36,628 bases of DNA from a virus. A model generated the notes under the pieces. That model made no database searches, was not told the origin of the DNA, and worked only from the letters and a program-made list of their open reading frames with translations. The DNA lies in the IMG/VR virus record IMGVR_UViG_3300043419_000944, positions 1-36,628 of that record; one strand, 5' to 3'. Shown piece by piece: positions 17,928-36,286 of the stretch; position 1 is the first letter of the stretch, and every line of letters starts with the position of its first letter. Both the position numbers and the translations under genes were made by a program.

Positions 17928-18125
17928 ATGAAAGCTGAAGTTAAATTAACTAGTGTAAACATTTTAGATGATGTTTATAAAAAATTCAAAATTAAATCGA
18001 TTGATGGTTCAATCAACCTACAAAAACTCGTAAACAGGTCTTTAGATTTATATACTAAAAGTGAAGATTTCAAAGACAAGATTGACAATCATAATGGGTT
18101 AGCATCTAGCGGTTCAAAGTTTTAA
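17928..18125 (+). CDS. possible ribbon-helix-helix regulator
   Basis: 65 residues. AEVKLTSVNILDDVYKKFK (3-21) looks like the beta-strand and first helix of a ribbon-helix-helix fold, followed by GSINLQKLVNRSLDLYTK (27-44) as the second helix, the usual layout of CopG/ParD/Arc-like DNA-binding proteins. It is the first gene of the rightward glycosyltransferase operon, starting 32 bases after the terminator and separated from the first glycosyltransferase by three bases. A role as operon regulator is inferred from position; a TATAAT-like box sits at 17900-17905. Confidence 0.6.
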   Translation: MKAEVKLTSVNILDDVYKKFKIKSIDGSINLQKLVNRSLDLYTKSEDFKDKIDNHNGLASSGSKF

Positions 18126-18128
18126 TTA

Positions 18129-19484
18129 ATGAAAAAAAAGATATTATTATTATCTGATGATTTGAGAATGACATCAGGTATATCTACTATGTCAAGGGAA
18201 CTTGTGTTGGGGACAATTCACAAGTACGATTGGGTACAGTTGGGTGCTGCAATTCAACATCCTGAGTTTGGTAAAGTGGTGGATGTAAATCAAGATGTGA
18301 GAGATAGAACAGGTATTGAAGATGCAAATCTTAAAATATATCCTAGCCACGGTTATGGTGATATTAATATTTTAAGAACATTATTAGCAATTGAAAAACC
18401 AGACGCAATCTTACATTTTACTGACCCACATTATTGGCAATGGTTATATGATAATGAACACGAGATAAGACAACAAGTTCCGATATTGTATTATCACATT
18501 TGGGATGATTTACCTGACCCAAAGTACAACAGAGATTACTACGAGAGTTGTGATTGGGTTGGTTGTATATCTAAACAAACTTATGGTATTGTTCATCGAG
18601 TTGGTAAAATGATTGATGAGGTTACACATAAACCATTGGAAGATTGGCAAATTAGTTATGTACCTCACGGAATCAATCCAAAAGTATTCAAACCTTTAGA
18701 TGATGTTAGTGATGATATTAAAAAACTAATGTTTGGTGACAAGGAATATGATTTTGTGTTATTCTATAACAACAGAAACATAAGAAGAAAACAACCATCG
18801 GATGTAATCTACTCTTATAAATTATTCTGTGATAAATTACCAAAAGAACAATCGGACAAATGTTTATTATTAATGCACACAGCTGCTGTTGATGAGAACG
18901 GAACTGATTTACCTGCTGTGATTGATGCGTTGTGTCCTTATGATGTTAAGTTCACAGGTTTAAAATTAGAACAAGATAAGTTAAATGAAATTTACAATCT
19001 TGTTGATTGTACCATTAACATAGCAAACAACGAAGGGTTTGGTTTAACAACTGCAGAATCATTAATGGCAGGTACACCAATCATTGTAAATGTGACTGGT
19101 GGTTTACAAGACCAATGTGGATTTAATTATAGTGCCGATGACTACATTACATTTGGTACTCTACACGATAAGAAGACGCACGGTTCAACATTACACGGTG
19201 AATGGGTTCTTCCTATTTGGCCGGCAGCAATTAACTTAAATGGTTCAGTGCCCACACCTTACATCTTTGACGATAGAGTTAATGATGATGAGGTCGCAAA
19301 TAAAATTGCCACAGTTTATTCTTGGGGTAAGGAAGAGAGAAAAAGAAGAGGTTTGTTAGGTAGAGAATTTATGATTGAGAATTTATCTTCAGACATTATG
19401 AATAACTCATTGATTGAAGGTATTGAAAGAGTTTTTGAAAACTATAAACCAAGAAAAAGATTTGACTTATATAAGATAGTATAA
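18129..19484 (+). CDS. GT-B glycosyltransferase, GT4-like
   Basis: 451 residues. N-terminal Rossmann-like domain begins KKILLLSDDLRMTSGI; the link to the C-terminal domain shows VPHGINPKVFKP (178-189) and FYNNRNIRRKQ (212-222). The GT4 donor-binding signature EGFGLTTAESLMAGTP (302-317) follows, with the second acidic residue at E310. It should be a retaining transferase moving a sugar from a nucleotide donor onto a glycan or protein acceptor; donor and acceptor cannot be read. It ends one base from the start of the second GT4 gene, indicating a shared transcript and likely a shared pathway. Confidence 0.9.
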   Translation: MKKKILLLSDDLRMTSGISTMSRELVLGTIHKYDWVQLGAAIQHPEFGKVVDVNQDVRDRTGIEDANLKIYPSHGYGDINILRTLLAIEKPDAILHFTDPHYWQWLYDNEHEIRQQVPILYYHIWDDLPDPKYNRDYYESCDWVGCISKQTYGIVHRVGKMIDEVTHKPLEDWQISYVPHGINPKVFKPLDDVSDDIKKLMFGDKEYDFVLFYNNRNIRRKQPSDVIYSYKLFCDKLPKEQSDKCLLLMHTAAVDENGTDLPAVIDALCPYDVKFTGLKLEQDKLNEIYNLVDCTINIANNEGFGLTTAESLMAGTPIIVNVTGGLQDQCGFNYSADDYITFGTLHDKKTHGSTLHGEWVLPIWPAAINLNGSVPTPYIFDDRVNDDEVANKIATVYSWGKEERKRRGLLGREFMIENLSSDIMNNSLIEGIERVFENYKPRKRFDLYKIV

Positions 19485-19485
19485 T

Positions 19486-20733
19486 ATGAAACCATTTTTA
19501 TTATTTAGAGGACCTGTAAAAACAAGAAGTGGATATGGTGCACATTCAAGAGATTTGTTGCAAGCATTATATGAAATGGATTTGTTTGAGATTAAGATAG
19601 ATAGTTGTATGTGGGGGTCAACTCCGATGACTGCGTTAGAAAAAGATAATCAGTTTCATATGTGGATTGAATCTAACATAATTAACCCTGCCGGTGTTAC
19701 CTCTGATTTTTATGTTCAAGTAACTGTACCTAATGAATTTGAAAGGAGAGGTAAGTTTAATGTTGGTATAACTGCAGGAATCGAAACTACAGTTGCACCT
19801 AAAGAGTGGATTGATGGTTGTAATAGAATGGATTTAGTTATAACGACATCAAAGTTCTCAAAAGAAGTGTTGTTATCAACTGTATACAATGAGAATGAAA
19901 ACAACACAGGAAAATTAATTAAACAACATAAGATACAAAAACCGATAGAAGTTCTATTTGAAGGTGTTGATGTTTCTACATTCAATAATGAATATAATGG
20001 TATTGATTTGGATATCAAAGAAGATTTTGCGTACTTGTTTGTTGGTCATTGGTTAAAGGGTTCACTTGGTCAAGATAGAAAGGATGTGGGAATGATGATT
20101 AAATGTTTTATGGAATCATTCAAAGATATTGAAGATAAACCTGCACTTATACTTAAGACTTCTTCGGCAACATTCTCAATTAAAGAACGTGAGAATATGA
20201 GAAGAAAGATTGAAGAGTTAACAAAAGGATATGATAATCCTCCATCCGTTTATCTATTGTTTGGTGAATTAACTAATCAAGAAATGAATGAATTGTATAA
20301 TCATCCTAAGATTAAATCGATGGTATCAATCACAAAGGGTGAAGGTTTTGGTAGACCTCTATTAGAATTTTCAATGACAGGAAAGCCAATCATAGCGTCT
20401 AACTGGTCAGGTCATAAAGATTTCTTACCAATGGATAAAGCGATTATGATTGGTGGTTCATTAACTGATGTACACGAAAGTGCTGCTGATAGTTTTATAC
20501 TAAGAGGGTCTAAATGGTTTACCGCAAACTATAATGAGTTCGCAGAAGTGTTAAGATTAGTTAAAAATGATTATGACAAATTCAAAGAAAAATCTGAAAC
20601 ACTAAGAGAAGAAAATAAAGAAAAGTTCTCAATGGAAAAAATGAAAGATGTGTTTATGAATTTGATTAAACCATATACCGTTCAACCTAAAGAACATAAT
20701 TTGGTTTTACCAAAACTTACAAAAATTAAGTAA
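19486..20733 (+). CDS. GT-B glycosyltransferase, GT4-like
   Basis: 415 residues, organised like the gene upstream: FLLFRGPVKTRSGYGAHSRD at the start (donor-side Gly-rich loop), LFEGVDVSTFN near 160-170, and KGEGFGRPLLEFSMTGKP (284-301) as the GT4 signature with the catalytic Glu at E286/E294. NWSGHKDFL continues the domain. Probably retaining; donor and acceptor unknown. It couples to the next gene by TAATG (20733). Two consecutive GT4 enzymes usually add successive residues of one chain, which is inference here. Confidence 0.9.
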   Translation: MKPFLLFRGPVKTRSGYGAHSRDLLQALYEMDLFEIKIDSCMWGSTPMTALEKDNQFHMWIESNIINPAGVTSDFYVQVTVPNEFERRGKFNVGITAGIETTVAPKEWIDGCNRMDLVITTSKFSKEVLLSTVYNENENNTGKLIKQHKIQKPIEVLFEGVDVSTFNNEYNGIDLDIKEDFAYLFVGHWLKGSLGQDRKDVGMMIKCFMESFKDIEDKPALILKTSSATFSIKERENMRRKIEELTKGYDNPPSVYLLFGELTNQEMNELYNHPKIKSMVSITKGEGFGRPLLEFSMTGKPIIASNWSGHKDFLPMDKAIMIGGSLTDVHESAADSFILRGSKWFTANYNEFAEVLRLVKNDYDKFKEKSETLREENKEKFSMEKMKDVFMNLIKPYTVQPKEHNLVLPKLTKIK

Positions 20734-20996
20734 TGTCGTTTAAATTTTTAAGGGATAATAATAGTTTATTTTCAGATTTAGAACCGACACAAATTTTAAC
20801 ATTAAGTCGAGCGGCGTACTATCCTGAAAATGTTGAGTTTTGTTTTCAATTTGGTGATAATGAACCTACAGTGTTTGCCACGGGTCCTAATGAATGTACC
20901 ATTCGTTTATCACCGAGTCCCAATGGTAATGTAACATTTACAAGTAATGAAGGTTCAACATTTAAATTATTTGCAAGGGAGATTCAAAATGGTTAG
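20733..20996 (+). CDS. small hypothetical protein in glycan operon
   Basis: 87 residues. Predicted mostly beta: CFQFGDNEPTVFATG, ECTIRLSPSPNGNVTFTSNEG and STFKLFAREI could be strands of an Ig-like or decoration-type sandwich. No signal or membrane segment. It begins in the stop codon of the second GT4 gene, and its stop lies inside the start of the next gene (20989). Because it is neither an enzyme nor a regulator, a virion-surface protein that is the acceptor of the pathway is an attractive but untested guess. Confidence 0.65.
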   Translation: MSFKFLRDNNSLFSDLEPTQILTLSRAAYYPENVEFCFQFGDNEPTVFATGPNECTIRLSPSPNGNVTFTSNEGSTFKLFAREIQNG

Positions 20997-21207
20997 TGAA
21001 TTTAAATTTTTTCGAGGTATTCCTAAAAAGGCAAGAGTGTTACGTGTAGATTGGAGACCAGAATTAGTGGATGATGGTGTCAATTATACTGATATTGTAT
21101 CAGAATTATCGAGAGCACTTTCTGAAACAATTTCTCGTGAAATTGATAACGACATTGTGAATCAACTAACAAGAAGAATAAACGGAGGATTTAATCAAAG
21201 AGCATAA
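20989..21207 (+). CDS. small hypothetical protein with SREIDNDI motif
   Basis: 72 residues from ATG at 20989; the longer frame from 20947 would bury 14 extra residues in the previous gene, whereas 20989 gives the usual eight-base overlap. The start MVSEFKFFRGIPKK resembles the preceding gene's MSFKFLRD. The C-terminus contains LSETISREIDNDIVNQLTRR, a helix like one I associate with T4-type capsid and vertex proteins (SREIDxEI). This hints at a small virion protein but is not proof. Confidence 0.65.
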   Translation: MVSEFKFFRGIPKKARVLRVDWRPELVDDGVNYTDIVSELSRALSETISREIDNDIVNQLTRRINGGFNQRA

Positions 21208-21210
21208 AAT

Positions 21211-21831
21211 ATGATATTAAGTTACGCAATTACAGTTTGTAATGAATTAGACGAAATCAAAAGATTGTTACCTTTCCTGATTGAGAAAAAAGGAATCAAT
21301 GATGAAGTGGTAATTCTTTTTGATGAGAAAAATGGTTCTCCTGAAGTACTTGAATATTTGTTAAATTTTAATAAATTACCGAATGTACAGACTTGGAGAG
21401 GATTAGATTTTGGAAATAACTTTGCAGATTGGAAGAACAAATTATCTGACTATTGTAAAGGTGATTACATATTCCAATTGGATGCTGATGAGTTGATTGG
21501 TGAAATGTTTATGTTAAACATTAAACCGATACTCGAAACTAATCCTGAGGTTGATTTATATTATCTATCAAGAATAAACATAGTTGATGGGATAACTGAT
21601 GAACACATAAGGAAGTGGGGTTGGAGTGTAAACCAAAAGGGTTGGATAAACTTTCCCGATAAACAGGGTAGAATATTCAGGAAGAATTTAAAATGGTTTG
21701 GTAATGTTCACGAAAGAATTATGGGTGCCGAAACAATTACCTCGTTACCTGATAGTGAAGATTTTTGTATAATCCATCATAAAAAAATTGAAAGGCAAGA
21801 AAAACAAAATAACTTTTACATAACATTATAA
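21211..21831 (+). CDS. GT-A glycosyltransferase, family 2-like
   Basis: 206 residues, a single GT-A domain. ILSYAITVCNELDEIKRLL is the N-terminal strand and donor loop, IFQLDADELIG carries the DxD-like DADE (91-94) that binds the metal and nucleotide sugar, and IFRKNLKWFGNVHERI (about 155-170) is the acceptor-side block typical of GT2 enzymes of the SpsA type. Inverting mechanism expected. It lacks membrane spans, so the acceptor is soluble or membrane-associated through another protein. One base from the epimerase gene. Confidence 0.88.
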   Translation: MILSYAITVCNELDEIKRLLPFLIEKKGINDEVVILFDEKNGSPEVLEYLLNFNKLPNVQTWRGLDFGNNFADWKNKLSDYCKGDYIFQLDADELIGEMFMLNIKPILETNPEVDLYYLSRINIVDGITDEHIRKWGWSVNQKGWINFPDKQGRIFRKNLKWFGNVHERIMGAETITSLPDSEDFCIIHHKKIERQEKQNNFYITL

Positions 21832-21832
21832 A

Positions 21833-22831
21833 ATGAAGATATTAATAACAGGAGTTGCAGGATTATTAGGGTCAAGATTAGCAGACTATATTGCTGAGAA
21901 TCATCCAGATGTACACATAGTCGGTATGGATGATTTGAGTGGTGGTTACAAAGAAAATGTAAACCCAAAGGTTGAGTTTTGGCAAATGAATTTGGTTGAA
22001 CATCCAATTGAAAATTGTTTCGAGGTTCATAAGTTTGATTACGTTTATCACTTTGCAGCATACGCAGCAGAAGGGTTATCACCATTCATTCGAACTTACA
22101 ACTATCAAAACAATTTAGTTGCAACATCGAGAATCATAACACAATGTATCAAACACGATGTTAAACGTTTAGTGTTTACATCAACGTTAGCGGTGTATGG
22201 TCACCAAGACGGTAATATGTTTGATGAGGTTCAAGTACCTAAACCTATTGACCCATATGGTGTTGCTAAGTATGGTTGTGAAATGGATATTCAAATTGCT
22301 GGTGAACAACACGGATTAGATTGGTGTATCATTCGTCCTCATAATGTATTTGGAGTTAAACAAAACATATGGGACAAGTATAGAAACGTATTGGGTATTT
22401 GGATGTATCAACATATGATTGGTGAACCGATGACAATCTTTGGTGATGGTACACAAACAAGAGCATTTAGTTATATTGATGATAGTCTTGGACCATTATG
22501 GAAAGCGTCTCAAGATATTAGAGCAAGTAAACAAATTATAAATCTTGGTGGTATCAAAGAATATTCAATCAATGAAGCTAACGAAATATTAAGAGAAGTT
22601 GTTGGTGGTGGTTCTGTTCAATATTATGAACAAAGACACGAAGTTAAACATTCAATACCTACTTGGCAAAAATCGATAGACCTATTAGATTTTGAGTTTA
22701 AAACGGATTTAAAAGAGGGACTAACAAAGATGTGGGATTGGGCAAAACAACAACCTATAAGAGAAAGGTTTGTTTGGCCGTTCTATGAGTTAGATAAAGG
22801 AATTTATTCATTTTGGAAAAATAAAAAATAA
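21833..22831 (+). CDS. NAD-dependent sugar epimerase/dehydratase (extended SDR)
   Basis: 332 residues. Cofactor motif GVAGLLG (7-13) with the acidic residue D33/D34 of GMDDLSGG for NAD(H), STLAVYG (117-123) with the active-site Ser/Thr, and the YxxxK pair Y142/K146 in YGVAK. IIRPHNVFG and RAFSYIDD follow the UDP-glucose 4-epimerase or GDP-sugar dehydratase pattern. It converts a nucleotide sugar to a new stereoisomer or deoxy form, probably supplying the glycosyltransferases in this operon. Which sugar cannot be told from sequence. Confidence 0.92.
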   Translation: MKILITGVAGLLGSRLADYIAENHPDVHIVGMDDLSGGYKENVNPKVEFWQMNLVEHPIENCFEVHKFDYVYHFAAYAAEGLSPFIRTYNYQNNLVATSRIITQCIKHDVKRLVFTSTLAVYGHQDGNMFDEVQVPKPIDPYGVAKYGCEMDIQIAGEQHGLDWCIIRPHNVFGVKQNIWDKYRNVLGIWMYQHMIGEPMTIFGDGTQTRAFSYIDDSLGPLWKASQDIRASKQIINLGGIKEYSINEANEILREVVGGGSVQYYEQRHEVKHSIPTWQKSIDLLDFEFKTDLKEGLTKMWDWAKQQPIRERFVWPFYELDKGIYSFWKNKK

Positions 22832-22834
22832 TAT

Positions 22835-23458
22835 ATGATAAGTGTAATAATGCCGACGATGTTCGTGCCTGATGGTGTTGTTGAACTAGTTAAAGAAGTT
22901 ACTTCACATCCTTTAGTTAGTGAATTGATTTTGATTGATAACACAAATGATGATGAGATTCACATAAAAGAAGAAATACCAAAATTAGTTTACATTAAAG
23001 AAGGTAGAAACACATATGTGAATCCCGCTTGGAATAAAGGTTATTCAATTGCAAAAGAAGATAAGTTAATGTTTCTTAATGATGACATAACAACTGACTG
23101 GTCTTTACTTGATAAAATTCACGATAGCATAACTGAAGATAAGGGTATCATTGGATTAGGTGATGGGTGTTGGACAGAACCTAAGGGTAGATTTTTATTA
23201 ACTCCAATTTATCAATTGATTGGTGGGTTTGCTTGTTTATTCTTCATACATAAAAATTCATATCGACCTATACCTGAAGAATTAAAAGTATGGTATGGTG
23301 ATAATTTTTTAATTCACAAAGGACCTAAACAAGCATTTCAAATGTTAAACTGGAAAATGGGTGGACATATATCAAAAACGGTATTAAAAGCTGAGTTTAG
23401 TCCTGTTATTAGAGAAGACGGAATTGCTTGGTCGAACGTAATAAGTAAAATAAGATGA
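22835..23458 (+). CDS. GT-A glycosyltransferase-like protein
   Basis: 207 residues. SVIMPTMFVPDGVVELVKE at the start, YVNPAWNKGY (57-67 region) and MFLNDDITTDW with N82-D83-D84 as the DxD-like metal site give a clear GT-A, GT2-like core, but the C-terminal acceptor part is short and ends IRED-GIAWSN. It may act on a different sugar or as a half-sized transferase. The stop shares ATGA with the next GT gene (23455-23458), so the two are translationally coupled. Confidence 0.78.
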   Translation: MISVIMPTMFVPDGVVELVKEVTSHPLVSELILIDNTNDDEIHIKEEIPKLVYIKEGRNTYVNPAWNKGYSIAKEDKLMFLNDDITTDWSLLDKIHDSITEDKGIIGLGDGCWTEPKGRFLLTPIYQLIGGFACLFFIHKNSYRPIPEELKVWYGDNFLIHKGPKQAFQMLNWKMGGHISKTVLKAEFSPVIREDGIAWSNVISKIR

Positions 23459-24567
23459 GTATATCATTAGTAATGGCGGTCTACAATAAATTAGACCTAA
23501 CAAAAAAATGTTATGAGAGGGTTCGTCTGTTATATCCTGAAGCACCATTTGTAATTAGTAGTGGCGGTTCAAGTGATGGAACGAAAGAGTGGTTAGAGTC
23601 ATTAAATGATGATAACTTATCATTCATACACGATGATGATAGAATAACATTCTCGGACACATATAACGCAGGAATCAAGTTAGTTGACACTGATAAATTA
23701 GTATTGATTCATAACGATATGATTTTAGGTGAATACTTTCTTGAGAACTTAGAATCGTTATTGGATGAGAATCCAAATACTATCATCTCTTACACCACAG
23801 TAGAGCCTCCAATATTCAAAGGTCACTTAAGACCAGGTAAAGTATTATTGAATTTAGGTTCTAGTTTTGATGACTTTGATTATTTTCATTTCAACAATTA
23901 CGTTAATCAGTGGAAGGATAGTAAGAACCTATATGATGGTGCAGTATTCTTTATGAGCGGAACTAAAAAGATGTTTAATGATGTGGGTGGTTTTGATGGG
24001 TTTAGTTTTGTTCCGTGTTTCTGTGAAGATGACGATTTCTTGGTTCGTGCGAAACTAAAAGGTTATGAACTAAAGACTTGTGACTCTGCAATTGTTTATC
24101 ATTTTGTTTCGCAGACTTCAAGATTCAGTGATGATATGAGAGTTGATAGAAGAATCATCGAAGTATCATCCAATAGAAACTTTGTTAGGAAGTGGGGAAT
24201 ACCATTCTCAGCATTCAATGAACTAAGATATTGGGAAGAGAAGAACTTTAAGTATAAAATCTTCACAATGGGTTTAACCACCAACAATAGAAATCGTTTT
24301 ATGGAGATTGAACCATTCTTCGATAAAATCGAAATAGGGACAATTCCCGAGGACTATATTGAAAATGAACAGAAGAATACCCGTTATGATTTAAGGTCGA
24401 AATTTACGTTCACAGATAACGTAGATGTGATGATTTATGAAACTGCACCATTTGATGATATGGATATTAGAACCTTACATAAATTGAGGTTGTCGATACC
24501 CTACTATGAGGTGGGTGAATATCAAATTGGTAATATGATGATAGAAATAAGAAAGGAGGTTATTTAA
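23455..24567 (+). CDS. GT2-family glycosyltransferase
   Basis: 370 residues. GT2 core: SISLVMAVYNKLDLTKKC at the start, SSGGSSDGTKEWLESL, LIHNDMIL with H86-N87-D88 as the DxD-like site, and the distal ED motif in CFCEDDDFLVRAKLKGYEL (188-206) with catalytic acids near E191/D192. A C-terminal extension of about 120 residues is not recognised and may bind the acceptor. Last gene of the rightward operon; its stop sits inside the terminator hairpin at 24553-24574 and it overlaps the convergent gene 24560-25027. Confidence 0.92.
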   Translation: MSISLVMAVYNKLDLTKKCYERVRLLYPEAPFVISSGGSSDGTKEWLESLNDDNLSFIHDDDRITFSDTYNAGIKLVDTDKLVLIHNDMILGEYFLENLESLLDENPNTIISYTTVEPPIFKGHLRPGKVLLNLGSSFDDFDYFHFNNYVNQWKDSKNLYDGAVFFMSGTKKMFNDVGGFDGFSFVPCFCEDDDFLVRAKLKGYELKTCDSAIVYHFVSQTSRFSDDMRVDRRIIEVSSNRNFVRKWGIPFSAFNELRYWEEKNFKYKIFTMGLTTNNRNRFMEIEPFFDKIEIGTIPEDYIENEQKNTRYDLRSKFTFTDNVDVMIYETAPFDDMDIRTLHKLRLSIPYYEVGEYQIGNMMIEIRKEVI

Positions 24568-25937: not shown

Positions 25938-25940
25938 AGT

Positions 25941-26806: not shown

Positions 26807-29800
26807 TATTCTTTAATTCGTTTATTTCTTTTTTCAAATCTTTTATCGCCTCGATTAACACTGCAGTAATTCTACCATAAGATACGGAATCTACTTTACC
26901 TTCTGAATCGTAAAGTACCACATCAGGTAAAATTTCGGCAATTTCTTCAGCAATAACACCCATTTCTTTAACGTTATTCTCTTTTTTAACGTAAGTAACA
27001 CCTCTTAATTGTAAAACTTTATCCAGACCGTAACTAATGGTTTCAATATCTTTCTTATATCGGATTGATGAGTTTTCTGTTAACGTACCACCAACTGTCA
27101 TATTACCACCGGTCGTTAATGTGCCGTTGAAATAGTGTGCTCCTTGTGAATCTTTAAACTCGGTTCTTGATGTTGTTTTTACAATATTAGAATAATATGA
27201 TGAGTTAGATAAACCTCTATATGAATTAGCACTACCCGTGGTTTTAACTCCGTCCATTCTAACTAAAGTAACCATTGCATCTCCGTCACTCCAACCTCCG
27301 TGTCCTGCGTTGTTAAAACCACCTACGTGGAAAACAGGTCGAGCATTGGCACTTGCATCTCTACCTACCACTAAGAAACCATCATTATTATTATAACAAT
27401 ATAATGCGGTACACCATCCTTCACCACTTAAAACTTCCGAGGTACTTCTAAGTGATAATCCAGTAGCATCTGCCGTAGATGTTGCTGCCACTTGTGATGC
27501 TGATACTCCAGCAAATGTTGGGGAGTTGCCGGTACCGACACTTTGATTAATTGTATATGCAGTAATGTTAGATGCCGTTCCTGTGGTATTTTGGTTCCAC
27601 GTAGGTATATTACCTGAGTGATAAACTGTATTTCCGTTCCAATTAATACCAGTTCTAGTAATTCTAGCAATTTCTTCATAGTTAGTTGAAGATGAAGATT
27701 TAAAAAACCAACCTGTTACATCTCCCGCTTCGGCATATTCAATAAATGTCGTTTGGTGTCCAGCAGTAACAGTTGGTGTTGCTGTAGGTCCCGAAACCGC
27801 GGCTCTAAATGTCATCATATGGTTATTATTATCATAACCAGAAAATATACCATAGGTATTCGCACCACCTGTTCTGGCAATAACCCTTCCACTTGTAACC
27901 GTCAAAGTATTATTAATAGAAATTGCGGTACTTGTGCTCGCACCTCTTCCTGTAACGGTTGCGAGAGTTTCACTACCTGCAGTACCACTAATATTTGTTA
28001 CGCTTGTTAAATAACCAGAGTTGTTTGTAAACTGAGATATGTTCATACTGGTTAGTGAACCTGCGGTTGTTGCGTATGATACAGATTGTGAACCAATATT
28101 ACTTGTTGTAATAGCATCCGTAATTCCGTAACCACTAATCGTTGTTGGTTTAGATGAAACGTTTGCAAATGAAATTCCTGTTATATAACCAGGTCCGTTT
28201 GTTAATTGATTAAGGTTAGTTAAGTTACCCGAATCCCAAATTGTATATCTTGTTGCTTTATTACCACGATATATGACACCTGCAGGATTTAAATATATGT
28301 TGGCGGTAGATTCAAGGGCTAAGTTATCTTCCACATTACCTACACCATCATTAGATGTACCTATTCTAAGTACTGACCTTTCAGTACCGCCAGCATCACT
28401 ATAAGTTGTACTGTTATTATCAAATGTTATATAACCATAATCGTCACCGCCTGTATTAGAACCACCAAAAGATTCTTCCCTACCAAAATATAATGCATTA
28501 CCTGCATCTACACCTAAATCAGAACTCATTCTTAACTTACCCGAAAGAGTAATTTGTGTGGACGAACTTGCCCCACGTGCGGTTACCGACGCCAGTGTAT
28601 CAGTTTCAGTGTATGAACTAATATATCCATTTGGATTGGTTGCGTTATATGGTGTGTATCCTAAACCATTGGTAACTTGTGTACTTGTTAATGTAATTTG
28701 TGAACTACCTGACACTAAACCACTTGGTATACTACTAATACTTAAGAAAGTAATTTGTGAGCTACCAGACACTAATGCCGGTTTATCAGTTATACCATTA
28801 AATGAAATCTGTGCGGAGCCTGATACAACAGAAATTCCGTTAAAGAAACTACCCGAATGTATTGTTGTTCCTGCTAATACCTGTGAACTACCTGACACTA
28901 AACCACTTGGTATACTACTAATACTTAAGAAAGTAATTTGTGACGAACCTGATACCACTCCTGATGGTAATTGTGCAGAACCCGACCAAATGCCAGTTCC
29001 ACTTAATACTTGTGATGACCCTGACACCGTTCCTGCGGGTAAATTAGCAATTACCTGAGCGGAACCACTTATAACTCCTGCGGGTAATTGAGCCGAACCT
29101 GACCAAACACCTGTGGATGTTAGTATTGTCGCTGCGGTTATTGAACCACCTAATGATGTACTTGTACCCGCAATTGATATTGAACTATTTGTAAGTGAAG
29201 CATTAGCGATATTTGTTAACGTGTTAGAACCTCCACTAATTGTTTTGTTTGTTAATGCTTGTGATGCTGTCTTTAACACAACCTCATCTTCGGAACCTAA
29301 CGGACCAGCAACCCACTTATCGTTTGTTGAATCCCAAAGAAATGAACCCGAAGTAAGTGTTGGTGATGTTGCATCTCTTACAACGATACCCGCATTAGTT
29401 GCACCTGTACCATTTAATTGAATAATATTATCACCAATATTAACAGTTGTTGAATCTACTTGAGTAGTGGAACCTTGTACGGTTAAATTACCTTTAACGG
29501 TGACGTTTGCACCACTTAAACCAAATGCCGTATTAAATGATGTGGTAAATGAATTCAACGCAGTAATTGCGGTTGTGTTACTACTTGTGTAAGAATTTAA
29601 ACTACTTGATGCAGTTTCTAACGCGGTTAATCTACCCGAAGCACTGCTTGTGAAACTATTCAAACTACTTGTTGCGGTATGAATCGCATTAATATTAGTA
29701 GTGTTACTACTCGTGTAAGAATTCAACGCATTGATTGAGGTGTTGTTCGAACCTGTGTAAGTATTCAACGCAGCAATTGAACCGGTTACGCCCTCAATAG

Positions 29801-31637
29801 AAGTTAATCTACCACCAGCACTTGAAGAGAATGAATTCAAGCTTGCAGTTGCGGTGTGAATTGAGTTTATATTTGTAGTGTTACTACTTGTATATGAATT
29901 TAAACTACCTGTTGTTGTTTCAAGTGATGTTAGTCTACTATTCTGAGTCGCCTCAATTGAATTATTAGAACTCGTAAATGAATTAAAATCTGTTCTAATT
30001 GAAGAACTTGCTGATTCAAGTGATGTTAGTCTACCTGTAGCACTCGATGTAAAAGTATTTAAACTACTCGTCGCAGTTTGTAATGTTCCTATTACTGTAT
30101 TGTTTGAACCTGTATATGTGTTTAAAATTGATATCGAACCTGTAACTCCTTCAATAGACGTTAGTCTACTGTTCTGAGTTGTCTCAACTGTGTTATTGGA
30201 ACTTGTAAAACTATTAAAGTCACTTCTAATACTACTACTTGCACTTTCTAATGAAGTTATTCTTCCACCCGCACTTGATGTAAAAGCATTCAAACTTCCT
30301 GTTGAAGTTTGAATTGAGTTTATATTTGTAGTGTTACTACTTGTATATGAGTTCAAACTTCCTGTAGATGTTTCCAACGCAACTAATCTATTCGATGCAC
30401 TTGATGTGTAAGAATTTAATGAACTAGTTGATGTGTTAACAGCATTATTATGAGTAATTTGTGAACTAGTAAACGTGTTCAAACTTCCTGTGGATGTTTG
30501 TAACGTACCAATAACCGTGTTGTTACTACCGGTGTAAGTATTAAGTGCACCAATTGAACCGGTTACGCCTTCAATGGATGTTAATCTACCTGTAGCACTT
30601 GATGTAAATGTATTTAATGAACTAGTTGCAGTATGAATTGCATTTATATTTGTAGTGTTACTACTTGTATATGAGTTCAAACTACTTGTTGCAGTTTGTA
30701 AAGTTCCTATTACTGTGTTGTTACTACCTGTATAGGTGTTAAGTAAACTAATAGACCCTGTTACACCTTCTATAGAATTTAATCTACCATTTTGATTAGA
30801 ATCGGTTGTTGCAATTGATGCTGATAAACTATTAATACTCGATGATAAACTTGAACTGAATGTTGAGTATCCTGTTGTTCCTGTAATGTTGACTTGTACT
30901 GACCCACTAACAATACTTGAAGGTATTCCTGTTAATCCACTATAGATAACTTGTGAGGAACCAGAAATTACACCGTCTGAATTTAATTTGTTTTTGATTG
31001 TTGTATTAATCGAACTTGTAAAACCATTCAAACTTGATGTTGAGATTTCTAACGCATCAATTCTTGGATTGATACTTGACGTGTAAGAATTGAATGTGGT
31101 AACCGATAATCTATTTGTTTCAACAAGTTGTCCATTTAATGATAATGAACCCGTAACACTAGCCGAACCTGTAATTTGGTGAGTATCATCTAAAGTGTTA
31201 CCAAATATTGTTGAGCCAGATTCAAAAAGAACTGATGAAGTAACAATTGATGTATGGATTTCTCTTGCAGTAATAATACCCGCAACATTTAAATCGGTAT
31301 TAACCTCTAAACCTCTATCTGGTGATATTGACGCACTAACACTACCACTTGTGATTTTGTTTAGATTTAATCCTGTAACCCCACTAGCGGGGATATTATA
31401 TAAATTAGCACCATCACCAATAAACGAACCCGTAAAAGAACCGGTCGTGTACGATGAGGTAAAAGTATTAAAACTTGAGGTTAGGGTATATCTCGGAGCA
31501 AAAGATGCGGTATCTGCACTTGTGGTGTTACCACTAATGGTTGCATTAATTATTCCAAGTACCCTTAAGTCTCCCTGTATTTCCGCCGAAGAGGATACCG
31601 ACAGGGAACCCGATATGTGTGCGTCAAATATATTCAT
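26799..31637 (-). CDS. long tail fibre with C-terminal peptidase S74 chaperone domain
   Basis: 1612 residues. The N-terminus (FDAHISGSLSVSSSAEI, then VSGSAQV-like strands) is the beta-repeat attachment part. Residues about 160-720 form a long shaft of Ser/Thr/Asn-rich repeats of the type SSLNSYTSSNTTNIN. A second repeat set (SGSSQITFLSISSIPSG) covers about 890-990. A beta-rich body follows, and the last 90 residues (SSIRYKKDI from S1523, GLDKVLQLRGVTY, MGVIAEEIAEILPDVV, YGRITAVLIEAIK) are the intramolecular chaperone of endosialidase/S74 type, which trimerises the fibre and cleaves itself near the serine. This is the host-recognition fibre. Downstream adhesin paralogues are co-transcribed. 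Confidence 0.93.
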   Translation of the reverse strand: MNIFDAHISGSLSVSSSAEIQGDLRVLGIINATISGNTTSADTASFAPRYTLTSSFNTFTSSYTTGSFTGSFIGDGANLYNIPASGVTGLNLNKITSGSVSASISPDRGLEVNTDLNVAGIITAREIHTSIVTSSVLFESGSTIFGNTLDDTHQITGSASVTGSLSLNGQLVETNRLSVTTFNSYTSSINPRIDALEISTSSLNGFTSSINTTIKNKLNSDGVISGSSQVIYSGLTGIPSSIVSGSVQVNITGTTGYSTFSSSLSSSINSLSASIATTDSNQNGRLNSIEGVTGSISLLNTYTGSNNTVIGTLQTATSSLNSYTSSNTTNINAIHTATSSLNTFTSSATGRLTSIEGVTGSIGALNTYTGSNNTVIGTLQTSTGSLNTFTSSQITHNNAVNTSTSSLNSYTSSASNRLVALETSTGSLNSYTSSNTTNINSIQTSTGSLNAFTSSAGGRITSLESASSSIRSDFNSFTSSNNTVETTQNSRLTSIEGVTGSISILNTYTGSNNTVIGTLQTATSSLNTFTSSATGRLTSLESASSSIRTDFNSFTSSNNSIEATQNSRLTSLETTTGSLNSYTSSNTTNINSIHTATASLNSFSSSAGGRLTSIEGVTGSIAALNTYTGSNNTSINALNSYTSSNTTNINAIHTATSSLNSFTSSASGRLTALETASSSLNSYTSSNTTAITALNSFTTSFNTAFGLSGANVTVKGNLTVQGSTTQVDSTTVNIGDNIIQLNGTGATNAGIVVRDATSPTLTSGSFLWDSTNDKWVAGPLGSEDEVVLKTASQALTNKTISGGSNTLTNIANASLTNSSISIAGTSTSLGGSITAATILTSTGVWSGSAQLPAGVISGSAQVIANLPAGTVSGSSQVLSGTGIWSGSAQLPSGVVSGSSQITFLSISSIPSGLVSGSSQVLAGTTIHSGSFFNGISVVSGSAQISFNGITDKPALVSGSSQITFLSISSIPSGLVSGSSQITLTSTQVTNGLGYTPYNATNPNGYISSYTETDTLASVTARGASSSTQITLSGKLRMSSDLGVDAGNALYFGREESFGGSNTGGDDYGYITFDNNSTTYSDAGGTERSVLRIGTSNDGVGNVEDNLALESTANIYLNPAGVIYRGNKATRYTIWDSGNLTNLNQLTNGPGYITGISFANVSSKPTTISGYGITDAITTSNIGSQSVSYATTAGSLTSMNISQFTNNSGYLTSVTNISGTAGSETLATVTGRGASTSTAISINNTLTVTSGRVIARTGGANTYGIFSGYDNNNHMMTFRAAVSGPTATPTVTAGHQTTFIEYAEAGDVTGWFFKSSSSTNYEEIARITRTGINWNGNTVYHSGNIPTWNQNTTGTASNITAYTINQSVGTGNSPTFAGVSASQVAATSTADATGLSLRSTSEVLSGEGWCTALYCYNNNDGFLVVGRDASANARPVFHVGGFNNAGHGGWSDGDAMVTLVRMDGVKTTGSANSYRGLSNSSYYSNIVKTTSRTEFKDSQGAHYFNGTLTTGGNMTVGGTLTENSSIRYKKDIETISYGLDKVLQLRGVTYVKKENNVKEMGVIAEEIAEILPDVVLYDSEGKVDSVSYGRITAVLIEAIKDLKKEINELKNNG
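28699..28943. repeat. two identical 62-bp direct repeats in the tail fibre gene
   Basis: 28699-28760 and 28882-28943 are identical over 62 bases, 183 bases apart start to start. They encode the same stretch, part of the SGSSQITFLSISSIPSGLVSG repeat of the fibre. Identity at DNA level, not only protein level, indicates recent duplication or gene conversion and makes in-frame deletion by recombination likely. Confidence 0.85.
29545..30800. repeat. tandem coding repeats of the tail-fibre shaft
   Basis: A run of degenerate coding units of about 45-90 bases giving SSLN[ST][YF]TSS followed by a variable short linker. Subsets are near-identical at DNA level: TTACTACTTGTATATGA-like segments occur near 29880, 30338 and 30660. 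Also repeated: the GVTGS-based unit SIEGVTGSI (four copies or more). The units build a rod-like trimeric shaft. No spacer-like unique sequences, so not a CRISPR array. Confidence 0.8.
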
Positions 31638-31691
31638 CTAATATGTTATTATACTTAGATAAATACTTTGTTTGTCGGTTATGACTTTCGT

Positions 31692-32465
31692 TTATTTAGG
31701 TAAATAATCGGAAAAATTGGATTTTACAAACTGAAGTAGTTTTTTGGAGTATTCTTCGTTGTGTTTTGGGGTTGCGTGTTTACCATCAATGGAGAATTCA
31801 CGGAAATCTCCGTAGTCACCATCGAACCGATATTTGTCAGAATATTCGTTATCCATCAGGAAAGAACCGTTCCATATATATGGGATGCTCCTATTCTCCA
31901 AATAATTGGTGATTAGAAGATGGTTTTTGTACCAATTGATTAAATCGTTCTCGTCGTGGGTAATTCTTGCAATTGATTTGTACTCTTCCTTCCCTTCACT
32001 ATCTTCCTTAAAATAACCCCAAGGAGTCATATGAAATGGTTCCAACTCTCCATTATATCGGTAATATTCTTTACGTGATGGATAAGTGTACATTAAGTTA
32101 ACCAAATTAGGTCTTATCTTTTGAGTTAAGGTGATAACACATCTAGCAATGTAATCGTTACTACGTCCACCAAACCCCAAATTTAAATCTACCCCGTTCT
32201 GTATCTGTCTTGAGAAATAATAAGGCCAAGTTTGATTATCACTAACCCCAACACCTTCAGTGTGGGAACAACCAACTGACATTATTCTAAACCCATCCTT
32301 ATATAATGAATCTCCCCTGAACCCCATTTCATTGTATGTGTAGTTATTCGTTTCGGAAATATCGGAACCTGATGTGTTGAGTGTTTTATTTCTACGTTCA
32401 TCCAATCTCCAAGAATGGTTACCCACCTCAAACCCCGAACTTGTCCAAAACTTCATTGATTTCAT
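31692..32465 (-). CDS. SGNH-like hydrolase with GCSHTEG block I
   Basis: 257 residues. A short N-terminal cap (TYNEMGFRGDSLYKDGFR) leads into block I GCSHTEGVGVS (65-75, Ser at 67), block II GFGGRSNDYI, block III MYTYPSR and the terminal DGKHATPKHN with H230 as the catalytic His. The cap plus GCSHT layout is common in SGNH proteins of marine viruses and lipopolysaccharide-modifying clusters. It probably esterifies or de-esterifies a sugar. ATGA overlap (32462-32465) with the glycosyltransferase-like gene upstream; last of the coupled set. Confidence 0.82.
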   Translation of the reverse strand: MKSMKFWTSSGFEVGNHSWRLDERRNKTLNTSGSDISETNNYTYNEMGFRGDSLYKDGFRIMSVGCSHTEGVGVSDNQTWPYYFSRQIQNGVDLNLGFGGRSNDYIARCVITLTQKIRPNLVNLMYTYPSRKEYYRYNGELEPFHMTPWGYFKEDSEGKEEYKSIARITHDENDLINWYKNHLLITNYLENRSIPYIWNGSFLMDNEYSDKYRFDGDYGDFREFSIDGKHATPKHNEEYSKKLLQFVKSNFSDYLPK

Positions 32466-33160
32466 ATTAAATTCTTGTTTCTATTGAAATGACTAACTTT
32501 ATTTTTATCCGCAATGTGACAAACTCCGTTCATCGATAACTCACCAAACGATGGGTTATGTTTATATAGGTAATTTATATCATCAAAGTATAAATTTAAA
32601 TATTGTTGGTTTAAGGTTATTGGTGGTATTCCGTGATAACGTTTATTAAAAAAATCGTAGTTTTCTTCAATAATTTCCAAAACTTCGGAATATGCTTTAT
32701 TCACATTTCTAAAGTTACGAGACGCAATTATTGAGGTGTTATTTAATTCGGTATAATCTAACGAGGTATTTGAATATAGTTTATGTAGTTCAGTAAAGTC
32801 CTCGATTTGTGAACTCGATAGAGGATGTTTGTAACATAAATTTAGTTTATCCTTTTTAATGATATCTAATAATTTTTTAATGTCCCCAACTACTAAATCA
32901 TTATCCAAATGTATAAAAGGGAACTGAATTTCAGATAGAACTTTTAATTTAGGATATGACCATATTGTTGGTTTTCGGTATCTATCCGGTAAGGACAATT
33001 CAACCCAATCATATATTAAGTTTAAATTTTTAAAATAATCAATATCGGAATATATTATAGGAACTTCACCTTGTATATTCAAACTTTGAATTGAATACTT
33101 TAAGTAAATTTCAGTAATCTCTTTAAGTCTGGTTGGTAGATATGTGAATACTATTCTCAT
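32462..33160 (-). CDS. GT-A-like putative glycosyltransferase
   Basis: 232 residues. FPFIHLDNDLVVGDI (about 79-93) is a DxD-like metal site after the segment WSYPKLKVLSE, a layout I associate with DUF6734-type and related glycosyltransferases. IVFTYLPTRLKE at the N-terminus fits the donor-binding strand. No membrane segment. The C-terminus is unremarkable. The donor is unknown. It overlaps both neighbours (ATGA at 32462; TAATG at 33160), so the set is translated together. Confidence 0.65.
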   Translation of the reverse strand: MRIVFTYLPTRLKEITEIYLKYSIQSLNIQGEVPIIYSDIDYFKNLNLIYDWVELSLPDRYRKPTIWSYPKLKVLSEIQFPFIHLDNDLVVGDIKKLLDIIKKDKLNLCYKHPLSSSQIEDFTELHKLYSNTSLDYTELNNTSIIASRNFRNVNKAYSEVLEIIEENYDFFNKRYHGIPPITLNQQYLNLYFDDINYLYKHNPSFGELSMNGVCHIADKNKVSHFNRNKNLI

Positions 33161-34404
33161 TATAGTAATGGTCGTTTTGGTATGGGTTCGTTAGTTATAA
33201 CTCCATTAACTATCATATCCAACATTGAATTTTCTTTATGTAATCTATCAATAAAAATGTCGTGACATTCTTTAATCCAATCCTTACATAGTTGATAATT
33301 GTTATCAAAATCACTAATGAATGTTCTCACAAAATCCGCAAATAGTTTAGCGTTCCCTTGGTATTGTTTGGACTCATCATAAAAAGGATGTTTTCTAATT
33401 CCAATCAAATCCATAATACAATCGTATGGATATGAGTGAGTGGAAACAAAAGGAACGTTAGCTAAAATTAAACCCAACGACTTTTCACTTAGATATTGAC
33501 TATGGTAGTTGGCGGAATTGTGGGCCCAAGATTCATCACATATTTGAATTTTAGACATTGGTAAAATCCTCAAGAAAAAGTCAAGACCTACAGTTATGTT
33601 TGTTAATATCCTTAAGTTCTGAAAATCAATTTCAGAATCGTAATCATTTAAGTAAGCACCTTCAATTTTTCTATACTTTGGTTGTACTGAATCCTTTTCA
33701 ATTACATTTGTTTGGGAAACGAAGATGTCTTCGATTTGTGTTAACTCCTCGGCAATTTTAACCCTAAGTGGTTTATGTGCTCTAACCGAATAGCCCATTT
33801 TATATTTTGGAACTATAACATCACTAACATTTTTATAATCATAGAACCACCTAATACTAATCATTTCATTCCATTGAAAAATAATATTAGTGAATGGATT
33901 GTACAAGTTTGGGTGTTTACTTAATACTATTTTGTTGGTGAAAATATTATCAGTTAATATAAAATGATTCGATAACCTGAGAATTTGATTTTCAATTTCT
34001 TCAATTTGTATTGTTCCGTCTGTCTTTACTTTTGTATTGTCGTTCTTAATGAATATCTTTTCAGTTCTAAACAAACAAACCACCCAATTCTTTTTATCTT
34101 GAATGAGGTCAGCCATTCTTTCAATCATAGCAAAAGAATCCGAACCTCTATGTTCAGTGTTTTCAAAATTAGTATCTTGACCTCTTTGTCTAAGTGCACC
34201 AAAGAAATCAATTATATGAATCCCCTCATCATCATTTATTTCAGGATTAAATGACACTTCAAAGTTCTTTCCTCCGTACTCAAATGTGACATCCCTAATT
34301 GCTCCATTAGTGTTATCTACTTCAACCATTTCTTTGTTCTCAACATTATGAAAGAACTTTTGAAATAACATATCAGTATAATAATGATGAACGAATATTT
34401 TCAT
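33160..34404 (-). CDS. putative glycosyltransferase-like protein
   Basis: 414 residues, no clear domain at the N-terminus. The distal segment YLSEKSLGLILANVPFVSTH (about 307-326), then IGIRKHPFYDES, recalls the EK-x-x-x-x-I-x-x-x-x-PF-I motif of fucosyltransferase or exostosin-like families in which an ESK/SEK block binds the nucleotide sugar. This is a motif-level inference, so it could be a capsular or LPS-type transferase or something else. It shares one base with 32462-33160 and is three bases from the sulfotransferase stop. Confidence 0.55.
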   Translation of the reverse strand: MKIFVHHYYTDMLFQKFFHNVENKEMVEVDNTNGAIRDVTFEYGGKNFEVSFNPEINDDEGIHIIDFFGALRQRGQDTNFENTEHRGSDSFAMIERMADLIQDKKNWVVCLFRTEKIFIKNDNTKVKTDGTIQIEEIENQILRLSNHFILTDNIFTNKIVLSKHPNLYNPFTNIIFQWNEMISIRWFYDYKNVSDVIVPKYKMGYSVRAHKPLRVKIAEELTQIEDIFVSQTNVIEKDSVQPKYRKIEGAYLNDYDSEIDFQNLRILTNITVGLDFFLRILPMSKIQICDESWAHNSANYHSQYLSEKSLGLILANVPFVSTHSYPYDCIMDLIGIRKHPFYDESKQYQGNAKLFADFVRTFISDFDNNYQLCKDWIKECHDIFIDRLHKENSMLDMIVNGVITNEPIPKRPLL

Positions 34405-34407
34405 ATG

Positions 34408-34905
34408 TTAAATTAATTTCTTAATTGTTTTATCTCTATTACCTTTTCTTAATCTACCTTCATTATTGAAATCGAAAATATCCTCATAGTAAGTTATTGG
34501 AACATTAAGTTTGACAGATAATTCACCAATTTCCTTATTCCATTTTATAATGTCGTTATAACATAATTCGTATATTTCTGAAGGAACCTCTTCATAAACA
34601 TATGGAGTATTTGAATTATAGTTTTTCTTTTTTGAAAAGTATGTTTGATATGCGTGTGATTCTGTACACTCTATTACATTTTTTCTTGTTAGTAATATAA
34701 CCTCATCAAACTCTTTAGACAATTCTAAATTACTATGATGATGACATATTATTGTTTTAACCACAACATTTTTTTCTCCATTATAATTAACTCTACCAGT
34801 ACCATCAAATGGTTCAAACAAAGGTTTTAAATTCTTCTCTTTTGCTATTTTGTGTAACAATGAAGTAGAACCCGTTCTTGGTAAGGAGATGATTAATACA
34901 CTCAT
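34408..34905 (-). CDS. sulfotransferase-family protein
   Basis: 165 residues, short for the family (usually over 250). The PAPS-binding loop is SLPRTGSTSLL (7-17). The 3'-phosphate motif appears as VILLTRKNVIECTESH (69-84), with R74 and S83 at the expected spacing. No membrane or signal segment. It would transfer a sulfuryl group from PAPS onto a sugar or a tyrosine-like acceptor. The small size may mean a shortened acceptor domain; the core looks intact. ATGA overlap with the oxygenase gene upstream (34902-34905). Confidence 0.82.
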   Translation of the reverse strand: MSVLIISLPRTGSTSLLHKIAKEKNLKPLFEPFDGTGRVNYNGEKNVVVKTIICHHHSNLELSKEFDEVILLTRKNVIECTESHAYQTYFSKKKNYNSNTPYVYEEVPSEIYELCYNDIIKWNKEIGELSVKLNVPITYYEDIFDFNNEGRLRKGNRDKTIKKLI

Positions 34906-35468
34906 AGTAATGTTTTATTACTTTTAACCCTCGGATAATCAAAATCTGTTTCGGTCATCCATACATTCAATGCATATCTTATTCCCTTAGTTACCGGCAG
35001 AACTCCGTGATATGTTTCAGAACCGTTGAATGAAATACTATCACCCAATTTTAAATCACATAAAGTTAAACCACCCAAAGTCTCAAAGTCATATGGTGGA
35101 TTTTCATCTTGGGTTAACACAAATTGACCTCCTTCAAAATCGTCAGAAAGAACAATAACTGTAGTTAATTCACTCGACTTATCTTTATGTAGATTAAGAT
35201 ACCTACCATCATAATACGATGTTAAACTAATGTTGAAATTTTTTAAATTAAATGTTGAGTAATCAAACCATAATTTAAACTCTCCATTTTTGTAATTGGT
35301 TGTTAATAAATTAATAATTCTTTCTTTAAAATTGGAATCGTACATTCTTCTACAATCCCATTTTTCAGTTGGTTTGTATGAAAATGGTTCACCGAACTCA
35401 AGACAAAAATCAATTATATCTTTAGCGGTTTCTCTATCACAAAAATTATTGTTTATGTTATAATTCAT
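34902..35468 (-). CDS. 2-oxoglutarate/Fe(II)-dependent oxygenase
   Basis: 188 residues. The double-stranded beta-helix core shows LHKDKSSELTTVIVLSDD (93-110) with H94 and D96 as iron ligands, GGQFVL, GDSISFNGSETYHGVLPVT with H154 as the third ligand, and GIRYALNVWM with R164 binding 2-oxoglutarate. This is the prolyl-4-hydroxylase-like (P4Hc) type. It hydroxylates a protein side chain, sugar or lipid; the target cannot be read. ATGA overlap at 35465-35468 with the SGNH gene upstream. Confidence 0.9.
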   Translation of the reverse strand: MNYNINNNFCDRETAKDIIDFCLEFGEPFSYKPTEKWDCRRMYDSNFKERIINLLTTNYKNGEFKLWFDYSTFNLKNFNISLTSYYDGRYLNLHKDKSSELTTVIVLSDDFEGGQFVLTQDENPPYDFETLGGLTLCDLKLGDSISFNGSETYHGVLPVTKGIRYALNVWMTETDFDYPRVKSNKTLL

Positions 35469-36286
35469 AGTAGATATGAATTTTTCTTTTTATTATTAGT
35501 TAGTAAATCACCTTCGTTTATGAATTTATATAATTCTTCCGCAATTAATTTATAACCATTGTTACTTGGGTGTTTACCTGCGGTAGTATCTACCCATCGA
35601 TTATTATCCTCCCAAACATCTTTTCTATTTGTATCGATTAATAAATTAGCCATTGTTTTATCTATATAACCCCAATATCTTTCACCCTCAATCAAATGAG
35701 TTTTATCAACCAGAACATCAATGTTTTTATTAATCATAGTGTCAAATGCGTCACAAAAAACATATCTAATTCCCAATTCCTTAAACATAAATTGTAAATG
35801 TAGTATGTAGTTTTGATTAACTATGTCATAGTATGCGTCATTAAATAAATTACTAATGTAGTAATCTCTAAAATTTTTTTCCGCCCTATTATAGTTTACA
35901 TTATCTCCACTAACACCATCGAAAATATATTTGAAAAGATGTTGCTTACTCTTATATCTTTGACCCCAAATATGAAAACTATTCTCATTTGGAAAAAATG
36001 GTAATTGGTCTCTTAAGGATGAGGACCACATAATAACAACAAAATCATCTTGAGTGATGATTTCATTTTTTAATTGATTGCAAACTGTATTGAATATTGA
36101 GTTGTTCGAGAACCCACCAACTCCGTTATTTTTAACTTCACATTCAAGTAGTTCCGATAAGTGTTTCGGCCAACAATATTTTTGTCTTATGTTAGTTCTT
36201 TCCTCAGGAATTTCTGTTGTTAATTCCTCATCAACATTACCCCCAACACCCTCAGTCCAACTATCTCCATATGTGAATAACTTCAT
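35465..36286 (-). CDS. SGNH/GDSL-type hydrolase
   Basis: 273 residues. Block I is TYGDSWTEGVGG (Ser at 9), block II NNGVGGFSNNSIF, block III the MWSSSLRDQL segment after DFVVI, and the terminal AGKHPSNNGYKLIAEEL carries H239. Features close to the protein at 14195-14839. No signal peptide, so it acts in the cytosol, perhaps on a glycan intermediate. It is the first enzyme in the coupled leftward set 36286 to 31692; 11 bases separate it from the 47-residue gene upstream. Confidence 0.85.
   Translation of the reverse strand: MKLFTYGDSWTEGVGGNVDEELTTEIPEERTNIRQKYCWPKHLSELLECEVKNNGVGGFSNNSIFNTVCNQLKNEIITQDDFVVIMWSSSLRDQLPFFPNENSFHIWGQRYKSKQHLFKYIFDGVSGDNVNYNRAEKNFRDYYISNLFNDAYYDIVNQNYILHLQFMFKELGIRYVFCDAFDTMINKNIDVLVDKTHLIEGERYWGYIDKTMANLLIDTNRKDVWEDNNRWVDTTAGKHPSNNGYKLIAEELYKFINEGDLLTNNKKKNSYLL

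Follow-up and report, generated by a model that had tools for sequence, protein, structure and literature searches.

What do the sugar-building and sugar-decorating genes around the tail fibre of a large uncultured phage act on, and do they form a single pathway? This question is raised by the viral IMG/VR record IMGVR_UViG_3300043419_000944, analysed here over its whole length of 36,628 bases (positions 1 to 36,628, hereafter the window). Its region 17,928-36,286, whose coordinates and open reading frames (ORFs) were confirmed, holds predicted glycosyltransferases and a sugar epimerase on one side of the fibre genes and putative sulfation, hydroxylation and SGNH genes on the other (Table 1). 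An initial annotation of the sequence had read them as one complete glycan pathway; our comparison with related phages argues for two modules. Module 1 (17,928-24,567, plus strand) is a glycosyltransferase cassette whose ends are constant and whose interior is swapped. Module 2 (31,692-36,286, minus strand) is, by its sequence, a tailoring set of its own that is linked to the fibre and led by a triad lying upstream of it, namely an SGNH-like protein, a 2-oxoglutarate (2OG)-Fe(II) oxygenase and a sulfotransferase-like protein.

The two modules were found apart. The complete genomes of Flavobacterium phage immuto and Microcystis phage Mel-JY01, as well as the 245-kb contig G002, contain the constant frame of module 1 with no adenosine 5'-phosphosulfate (APS) kinase or sulfotransferase, and the 251-kb contig G032 contains an APS kinase and a sulfotransferase without GT4a, the left-end glycosyltransferase of module 1. 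Since each module occurs without the other, we rejected the single split pathway in favour of two modules, and joint inheritance of the whole set is lacking in some of these phages. Both modules may act on the same particle. Chance does not explain the two gene orders, each of which is found again in dozens of contigs. The same genes are also carried by the longer contig G001 (3300046820_002180, 159,820 bases), in which GT4a and protein 33160 are 100% identical to those of the window at the amino-acid level and window position x corresponds to approximately 137,324 - x.

Scanning IMG/VR with the GT4a protein (18129) identified 144 relatives, and the best 80 of these 144 were kept as module 1 loci. 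Nearly all of the 80 share one gene order: a small protein (17928 in the window), GT4a, GT4b, (small ORFs), GT2a, a variable stretch and GT2c, after which the border gene 24560 follows on the opposite strand. The glycosyltransferases of this frame (GT4a, GT4b, GT2a and GT2c) have a median identity of 62-76% among relatives. The stretch between GT2a and GT2c measures roughly 0-7 kb, and the 61 loci compared contained 65 interior protein clusters in 41 distinct gene strings (~31 when protein lengths were ignored), including, by sequence inspection, aminotransferases, short-chain dehydrogenase/reductase (SDR) enzymes, a Glf-like flavoprotein, methyltransferases and acyltransferases. In the window, the interior consists of the epimerase and GT2b, and a close orthologue of the epimerase (>70% identity) was present in a minority of relatives only. 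All five glycosyltransferases (18129, 19486, 21211, 22835 and 23455) exceed the Pfam curated cut-offs, with scores of 28.8-43.1 bits, in line with their initial annotation, and the annotated sugar epimerase proves to be of the SDR family. The GT4b profile additionally matches the mannosyltransferase WbaZ-1 (6.4e-5).

The same frame with other interiors is present in the two cultured phages. In immuto (NC_055915), a small protein, GT4a (48%), GT4b (43%), another small protein and GT2a (45%) are followed by sugar genes, an epimerase and a GT2. Its interior differs from that of the window by two aminotransferases, an acyltransferase-like gene and a methyltransferase, and, unlike the window's phage, its genome carries no APS kinase and no sulfotransferase match. 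A glycosyltransferase cassette that keeps its ends and swaps its interior is one of the new elements of this locus.

For module 2, a family profile of the sulfotransferase-like protein 34408 retrieved 70 relatives in IMG/VR. The 2OG oxygenase precedes this gene in most of the 70 loci, an SGNH protein precedes the oxygenase in most loci having the pair, as in the window, and the fibre often follows the triad. The other slots come and go: 33160 (whose relatives in other triad loci are at ~35%), 32462 (missing from some relatives that retain 33160), the second SGNH gene, and extra 2OG or sulfotransferase-like genes. The window's 34408 protein has no Pfam or NCBIfam match, and within its family of 13 members five match Sulfotransfer_3 weakly (best 0.018) and one matches Sulfotransfer_1 (0.0013). 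Its PRTGST motif, a 5'-phosphosulfate-binding loop without the Walker lysine, is invariant in 13 relatives. Among the top PDB matches of its AlphaFold model (pLDDT 85), the highest TM-score belongs to Stf0, a trehalose sulfotransferase of solved structure (TM 0.56, E 0.0047), with P-loop kinases close behind; PDB profile searches with this family and with that of 32462 found no relative. We therefore describe 34408, on its motifs and a fold match of modest E-value, as sulfotransferase-like.

The annotated Fe(II)/2OG oxygenase 34902 was borne out, as its metal triad and 2OG-binding arginine (HxD...H plus Arg; H94, D96, H154 and R164) are invariant in 10 relatives, and its best PDB relative is prolyl 3-hydroxylase 1 (E 0.0034). 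The two proposed SGNH enzymes, 31692 and 35465, carry the expected motifs and show a mutual relationship in a profile comparison (E 2.8e-5) but stay below curated cut-offs (35465 scores 25.6 bits with DUF6071, just under the cut-off), and appear to be SGNH proteins at the motif level only. Less remains of two genes once listed as probable glycosyltransferases: 32462 has only its sub-threshold DUF6734 match, and for 33160 the label is unsupported, as Pfam, the PDB profile search and a poor AlphaFold model (pLDDT 48.8) gave nothing usable. The C-terminal SEK..PF of 33160 presumably recalls GT-B enzymes, an unconfirmed likeness on which we base no claim.

Outside the window, G001 carries a putative APS kinase upstream of module 2 (Table 1), which scores well above the Pfam cut-off and below the NCBIfam apsK equivalog cut-off (62.2 bits vs 138.7). 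Co-occurrence was scored in 28 records for which GT4a was the only route of retrieval, most of them fragments and related. Nineteen carry both an APS kinase and a sulfotransferase-family gene, one the kinase alone, none the sulfotransferase alone and eight neither (Fisher p 2.9e-6, with relatives that are not independent); in all 19 double records the two genes lie on the same strand, ~0.5-9 kb apart. Protein searches with the sulfotransferase, SGNH-like protein a and 33160 gave no match in 50,697 phage records. The SGNH/2OG/sulfotransferase triad with its linked APS kinase is another of the new elements.

How might these genes work together? We propose, giving it an even chance, that both modules act on phage products in the cytoplasm, where module 1 would build a glycan and module 2 would decorate. 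GT4a, GT4b, GT2a and GT2c would initiate an oligosaccharide on an unvarying acceptor, most likely a virion protein (capsid, tail or fibre), and also cap it, while the swapped interior, here the epimerase and GT2b, would alter which sugars are added and hence the glycan type of each phage. The triad and the exchangeable genes would hydroxylate, sulfate and (de)acylate a substrate tied to the same-strand fibre, and the phage APS kinase would convert host APS to 3'-phosphoadenosine 5'-phosphosulfate (PAPS), the sulfate donor. The sulfate might be placed onto the glycan, and the benefit might lie in shielding or adsorption.

The modules could instead change the host's O-antigen or capsule during infection and thereby block superinfection by other phages, as proposed for the glycosyltransferases of the pelagimyophage host recognition cluster (PMC7029224) and for jumbo-phage polysaccharide clusters (PMC7824862). 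Indeed, the sugar-building enzymes resemble O-antigen enzymes, and bacterial O-antigen and capsule loci likewise exchange sugar genes between constant flanks. A lipid-linked surface polysaccharide, however, requires a priming transferase, a flippase, and a polymerase or ligase, and, unlike those loci, the module 1 block contains none of these four. Of the parts of a Wzx/Wzy or ABC-type locus, glycosyltransferases and nucleotide-sugar enzymes are present and a polytopic transporter, polymerase or ligase is missing: a hydropathy scan of both blocks and the 65 interior clusters found no polytopic membrane protein and never more than a single borderline segment in a protein, which disfavours O-antigen export. 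Without flippase, polymerase or ligase, the acceptor is therefore probably a cytoplasmic phage product, i.e. a virion protein, and the phage-encoded, predicted cytoplasmic glycosyltransferases that virion glycosylation calls for are present. The frame is moreover common to phages of Bacteroidota and Cyanobacteria (immuto and Mel-JY01, respectively), and since the GT4a family is retained across host phyla, the best fit is an acceptor that is constant, cytoplasmic and made by the phage. By sequence searches, the GT4a family is nearly confined to phages, as only 2 of 84,980 cellular genomes had it, both of them contigs of metagenome-assembled genomes with the same cassette. We consider host-surface modification unlikely, and a virion protein (capsid, tail or fibre) made in the cytoplasm the most likely acceptor of module 1. 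Decoration of modified DNA bases as a protection against restriction seems quite improbable to us. Two DNA methyltransferases in the window (7386 and 16179) would suit it, and multi-glycosyltransferase phage DNA-glycan systems exist (Pyle et al. 2024, as cited in PMC12619734). Yet no second thymidylate-synthase homologue (PF00303, dCMP-hydroxymethylase-like) was found in five, possibly incomplete, genomes. The window's own synthase carries the dUMP-type Asn (LGLPFNIASY), so that no dCMP/dUMP hydroxymethylase is seen and glycosylation via hydroxymethylcytosine is disfavoured. A search for TET/JBP oxygenases, run without a positive control, gave no match in 13 records, and to our knowledge sulfated DNA glycans would be unprecedented.

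Other alternatives concern module 2 and its donor. The initial annotation placed glycan-building and decoration genes on both sides of the fibre genes, which our analysis supports, and in G001 the decoration genes reach further upstream. Besides the APS kinase, the 90-101 kb region contains a flavin-dependent tryptophan-type halogenase (G001 95740-96987, L110 15740-16987; 292 bits), a NodU-type carbamoyltransferase (208.8 and 193.8 bits), a nucleotidyltransferase-like gene, a DUF2061 protein, three 2OG oxygenase-like genes and, by inspection only, a second sulfotransferase-like gene. Three epimerase-type SDRs and an RmlC lie at 81-88 kb, and the upstream parent region gave two weak radical-SAM matches. 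Module 2 might thus join the halogenase, carbamoyltransferase, radical-SAM and 2OG genes in making a small molecule, i.e. a secondary metabolite or tailored peptide, and a similar cyanophage cluster was predicted to serve a halogenated metabolite or capsule decoration (PMC7824862). We judge this improbable, as six enzyme-like genes directly adjoin the fibre on its own strand, the fibre adjacency recurs in other triad loci, and the best solved relative of 34902 is a protein prolyl hydroxylase. As to the donor alone, freshwater phage cysC is currently interpreted as assimilatory sulfate reduction (PMC10914622), in which case the kinase would boost host cysteine and the nearness of the sulfotransferase would be incidental. 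This standing reading appears rather unlikely here: 19 of the 20 module 1 records with the kinase have a sulfotransferase-family gene on the same strand within ~9 kb, and PAPS reductase was found in none of 37 records and detected in 14 of 14 control genomes, so that in these phages the enzyme that should come next in the assimilatory route is missing from the phage side. Given the linked kinase and sulfotransferase and no PAPS reductase, sulfation is the simplest use to assume for the PAPS, which suggests that the phage supplies its own.

Several points weigh against the proposal that these phages glycosylate and sulfate their own products. It is drawn from gene content, neither the sulfotransferase nor the SGNH proteins reach curated cut-offs, and the APS kinases stay under those of NCBIfam as well (62-66 bits vs at least 127). 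Several of the 19 sulfotransferase matches are distant members (E 1e-9 to 1e-18) and not the triad orthologue, one contig (G006) has the kinase and no match with the 34408-family profile, and the contigs are mostly fragments and related, so that the co-occurrence is not independent evidence. Host flippases could also export a phage-made glycan, and the pelagimyophage glycosyltransferases were read as modifiers of the host O-antigen (PMC7029224). A further-reaching version, in which large uncultured phages make PAPS and sulfate a type-specific glycan on their own virion, with cysC as a sulfate-donor gene and the capsid-fragment ORFs described below as acceptor carriers or mimics, is offered tentatively, and we would sooner doubt than accept it.

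Between GT4b and GT2a lie two small ORFs that may bear on the acceptor. The second, whose likely start is 20989 and not 20947, covers ~50 of 376 positions of the gp23 profile and is thus not a whole HK97-type capsid protein; with the profile of its family, solved gp23 structures rank first (1.1e-6). Related copies reach up to 52% over 50 residues (E 7.6e-13) with the capsid protein of a relative. The small ORFs in the cassettes of L066, L093, L041 and other relatives are likewise of this kind, and in L093 (8038-8325) two further capsid pieces are joined in swapped order. For parts of the small ORFs, a tail-fibre origin has a weak match (E 0.001 over 29 aa). Their FKFF leader is conserved at the protein level with differing synonymous codons, and also opens unrelated small genes elsewhere in G001 (4 leaders vs 0.06 expected from shuffles); it is possibly a targeting signal. 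Several of these unrelated FKFF-led proteins lie at 140-160 kb of G001 (L113 11408, 15468, 16342, 17048, 19028 and 19380). The capsid-fragment ORFs may mimic the acceptor, act as decoys or play some other role; their position inside a glycosyltransferase cassette is a further new element.

By inspection, the phage is a large, uncultured T4-like myovirus of freshwater type. Its hosts are probably Bacteroidota, because its closest cultured relative by GT4a is immuto; at the nucleotide level, the window matched none of the cultured phages searched. Again by inspection, G001 has baseplate-like genes at one end and several long fibres at 52-68 kb, with the window's fibre at 105.7-110.5 kb. The three short proteins downstream of this fibre are possible adhesin tips. 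Further SGNH-like proteins lie at 14195-14857 and 16882-17709 of the window and at about 80769, 89080 and 148570-151358 of G001 (GDSYT, GCSHS and GCSFT-like motifs), bringing the phage's total to roughly ten by eye. Elsewhere in G001 (71172-74053, L109 11172-14053), two galactosyltransferase-type (GT7) enzymes each carry a fused laminin-G/ConA-like lectin domain. The window's thymidylate synthase (12755-13849) has ~45 extra residues (about 215-261) that are absent from the closest solved synthases. In immuto, queuosine and 7-deazaguanine DNA modification genes (QueD, QueE, FolE, QueF and DpdA) are annotated upstream (L094 1-8000).

Table 1. Genes of the two modules, the fibre region and the linked kinase, with window coordinates unless stated otherwise.
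Feature	Position	Strand	Evidence
65-aa cassette-opening protein, ribbon-helix-helix-like by eye	17928..18125	+	precedes GT4a in 81 loci, median 69% identity
GT4a, GT4-type glycosyltransferase, conserved left end	18129..19484	+	Glycos_transf_1 29.7 bits; phrog_2170 3.8e-16
GT4b, GT4-type glycosyltransferase	19486..20733	+	Glycos_transf_1 28.8 bits; phrog_2170 5.5e-21; 83 loci, median 74%
Small ORF, N-terminal FKF(F/L) leader	20733..20996	+	same slot in 53 loci
Small ORF, FKFF leader plus ~50 aa of gp23 major capsid protein	20989..21207	+	Pfam Gp23 24.8 bits
GT2a, conserved glycosyltransferase	21211..21831	+	Glycos_transf_2 29.8 bits; 83 loci, median 62%
SDR nucleotide-sugar epimerase/dehydratase, swapped interior	21833..22831	+	134.6 bits; phrog_540 6.5e-51
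GT2b, glycosyltransferase, swapped interior	22835..23458	+	Glycos_transf_2 29.7 bits; 18 loci
GT2c, glycosyltransferase, conserved right end	23455..24567	+	Glycos_transf_2 43.1 bits; 71 loci, median 73%
Conserved border gene, phrog_1401	24560..25027	-	adjoins GT2c in 58 loci
phrog_1787 protein, downstream of fibre	25065..25436	-	1.2e-13
Short proteins 25449, 25941 and 26378, resembling one another, directly downstream of fibre	25449..26806	-	shared motifs by eye; 14 loci
Tail fibre, 1612 aa, C-terminal endosialidase-type chaperone	26799..31637	-	Peptidase_S74 47.8 bits; phrog_33119 4.4e-17
SGNH-like protein b	31692..32465	-	GCSHTEG, GG..N, DxxH motifs
Possible glycosyltransferase, DUF6734-like, swappable slot	32462..33160	-	20.6 bits, below cut-off 27
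414-aa protein	33160..34404	-	no Pfam family, no PDB relative
Sulfotransferase-like protein	34408..34905	-	PRTGST invariant, no Walker lysine; 70 IMG/VR loci
2OG-Fe(II) oxygenase	34902..35468	-	Pfam 36.1 bits
SGNH-like protein a, DUF6071-like, triad head	35465..36286	-	GDSWTEG invariant in 9 relatives
Putative APS kinase	G001 94207, ~8 kb upstream of module 2, outside window		Pfam APS_kinase 60.9 bits vs cut-off 21.1

If the proposal is correct, phages possess a swappable, serotype-like locus for virion glycans, sulfation joins the possible modifications of phage particles, and viral cysC as sulfur assimilation gains a testable alternative. As immuto is cultured and carries the frame, the acceptor of module 1 is directly testable. 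Parts of this picture are already known, namely fibre-flanking glycosyltransferase islands in T4-like phages (PMC7029224) and phage virion glycosylation. A precedent is offered by Che8-type mycobacteriophages, whose capsid and tail-tube proteins were seen to carry glycans (Freeman et al. 2023, as cited in PMC11256854 and PMC12619734). Their phage-encoded glycosyltransferases are likewise proposed to act on virion proteins in the cytoplasm; the set described here is larger and is known from its genes. The jumbo cyanophage S-SSM6a also groups a carbamoyltransferase, a halogenase and 2OG oxygenases (PMC7824862); no sulfotransferase is described there, and here the fibre-linked region includes an APS kinase and a sulfotransferase-like gene. 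A literature search covering part of the field found no paper on phage sulfotransferases together with an APS kinase. The closest counterpart is the ~45-kb host recognition cluster of the T4-like pelagimyophages, which runs counter to the initial statement that glycosyltransferases come singly or in short sets in known phages (PMC7029224). In pelagimyophages and cyanomyophages it is a large hypervariable island among structural genes, with fibres interspersed with many glycosyltransferases and with radical-SAM genes; a sulfotransferase is not mentioned in that paper. The locus studied here shares the fibres interspersed with several glycosyltransferases in the structural region and the hypervariability between relatives, and differs in having, as one part, a cassette of fixed gene order that is constant at its ends and swapped inside and, as another, the conserved triad with a linked APS kinase.

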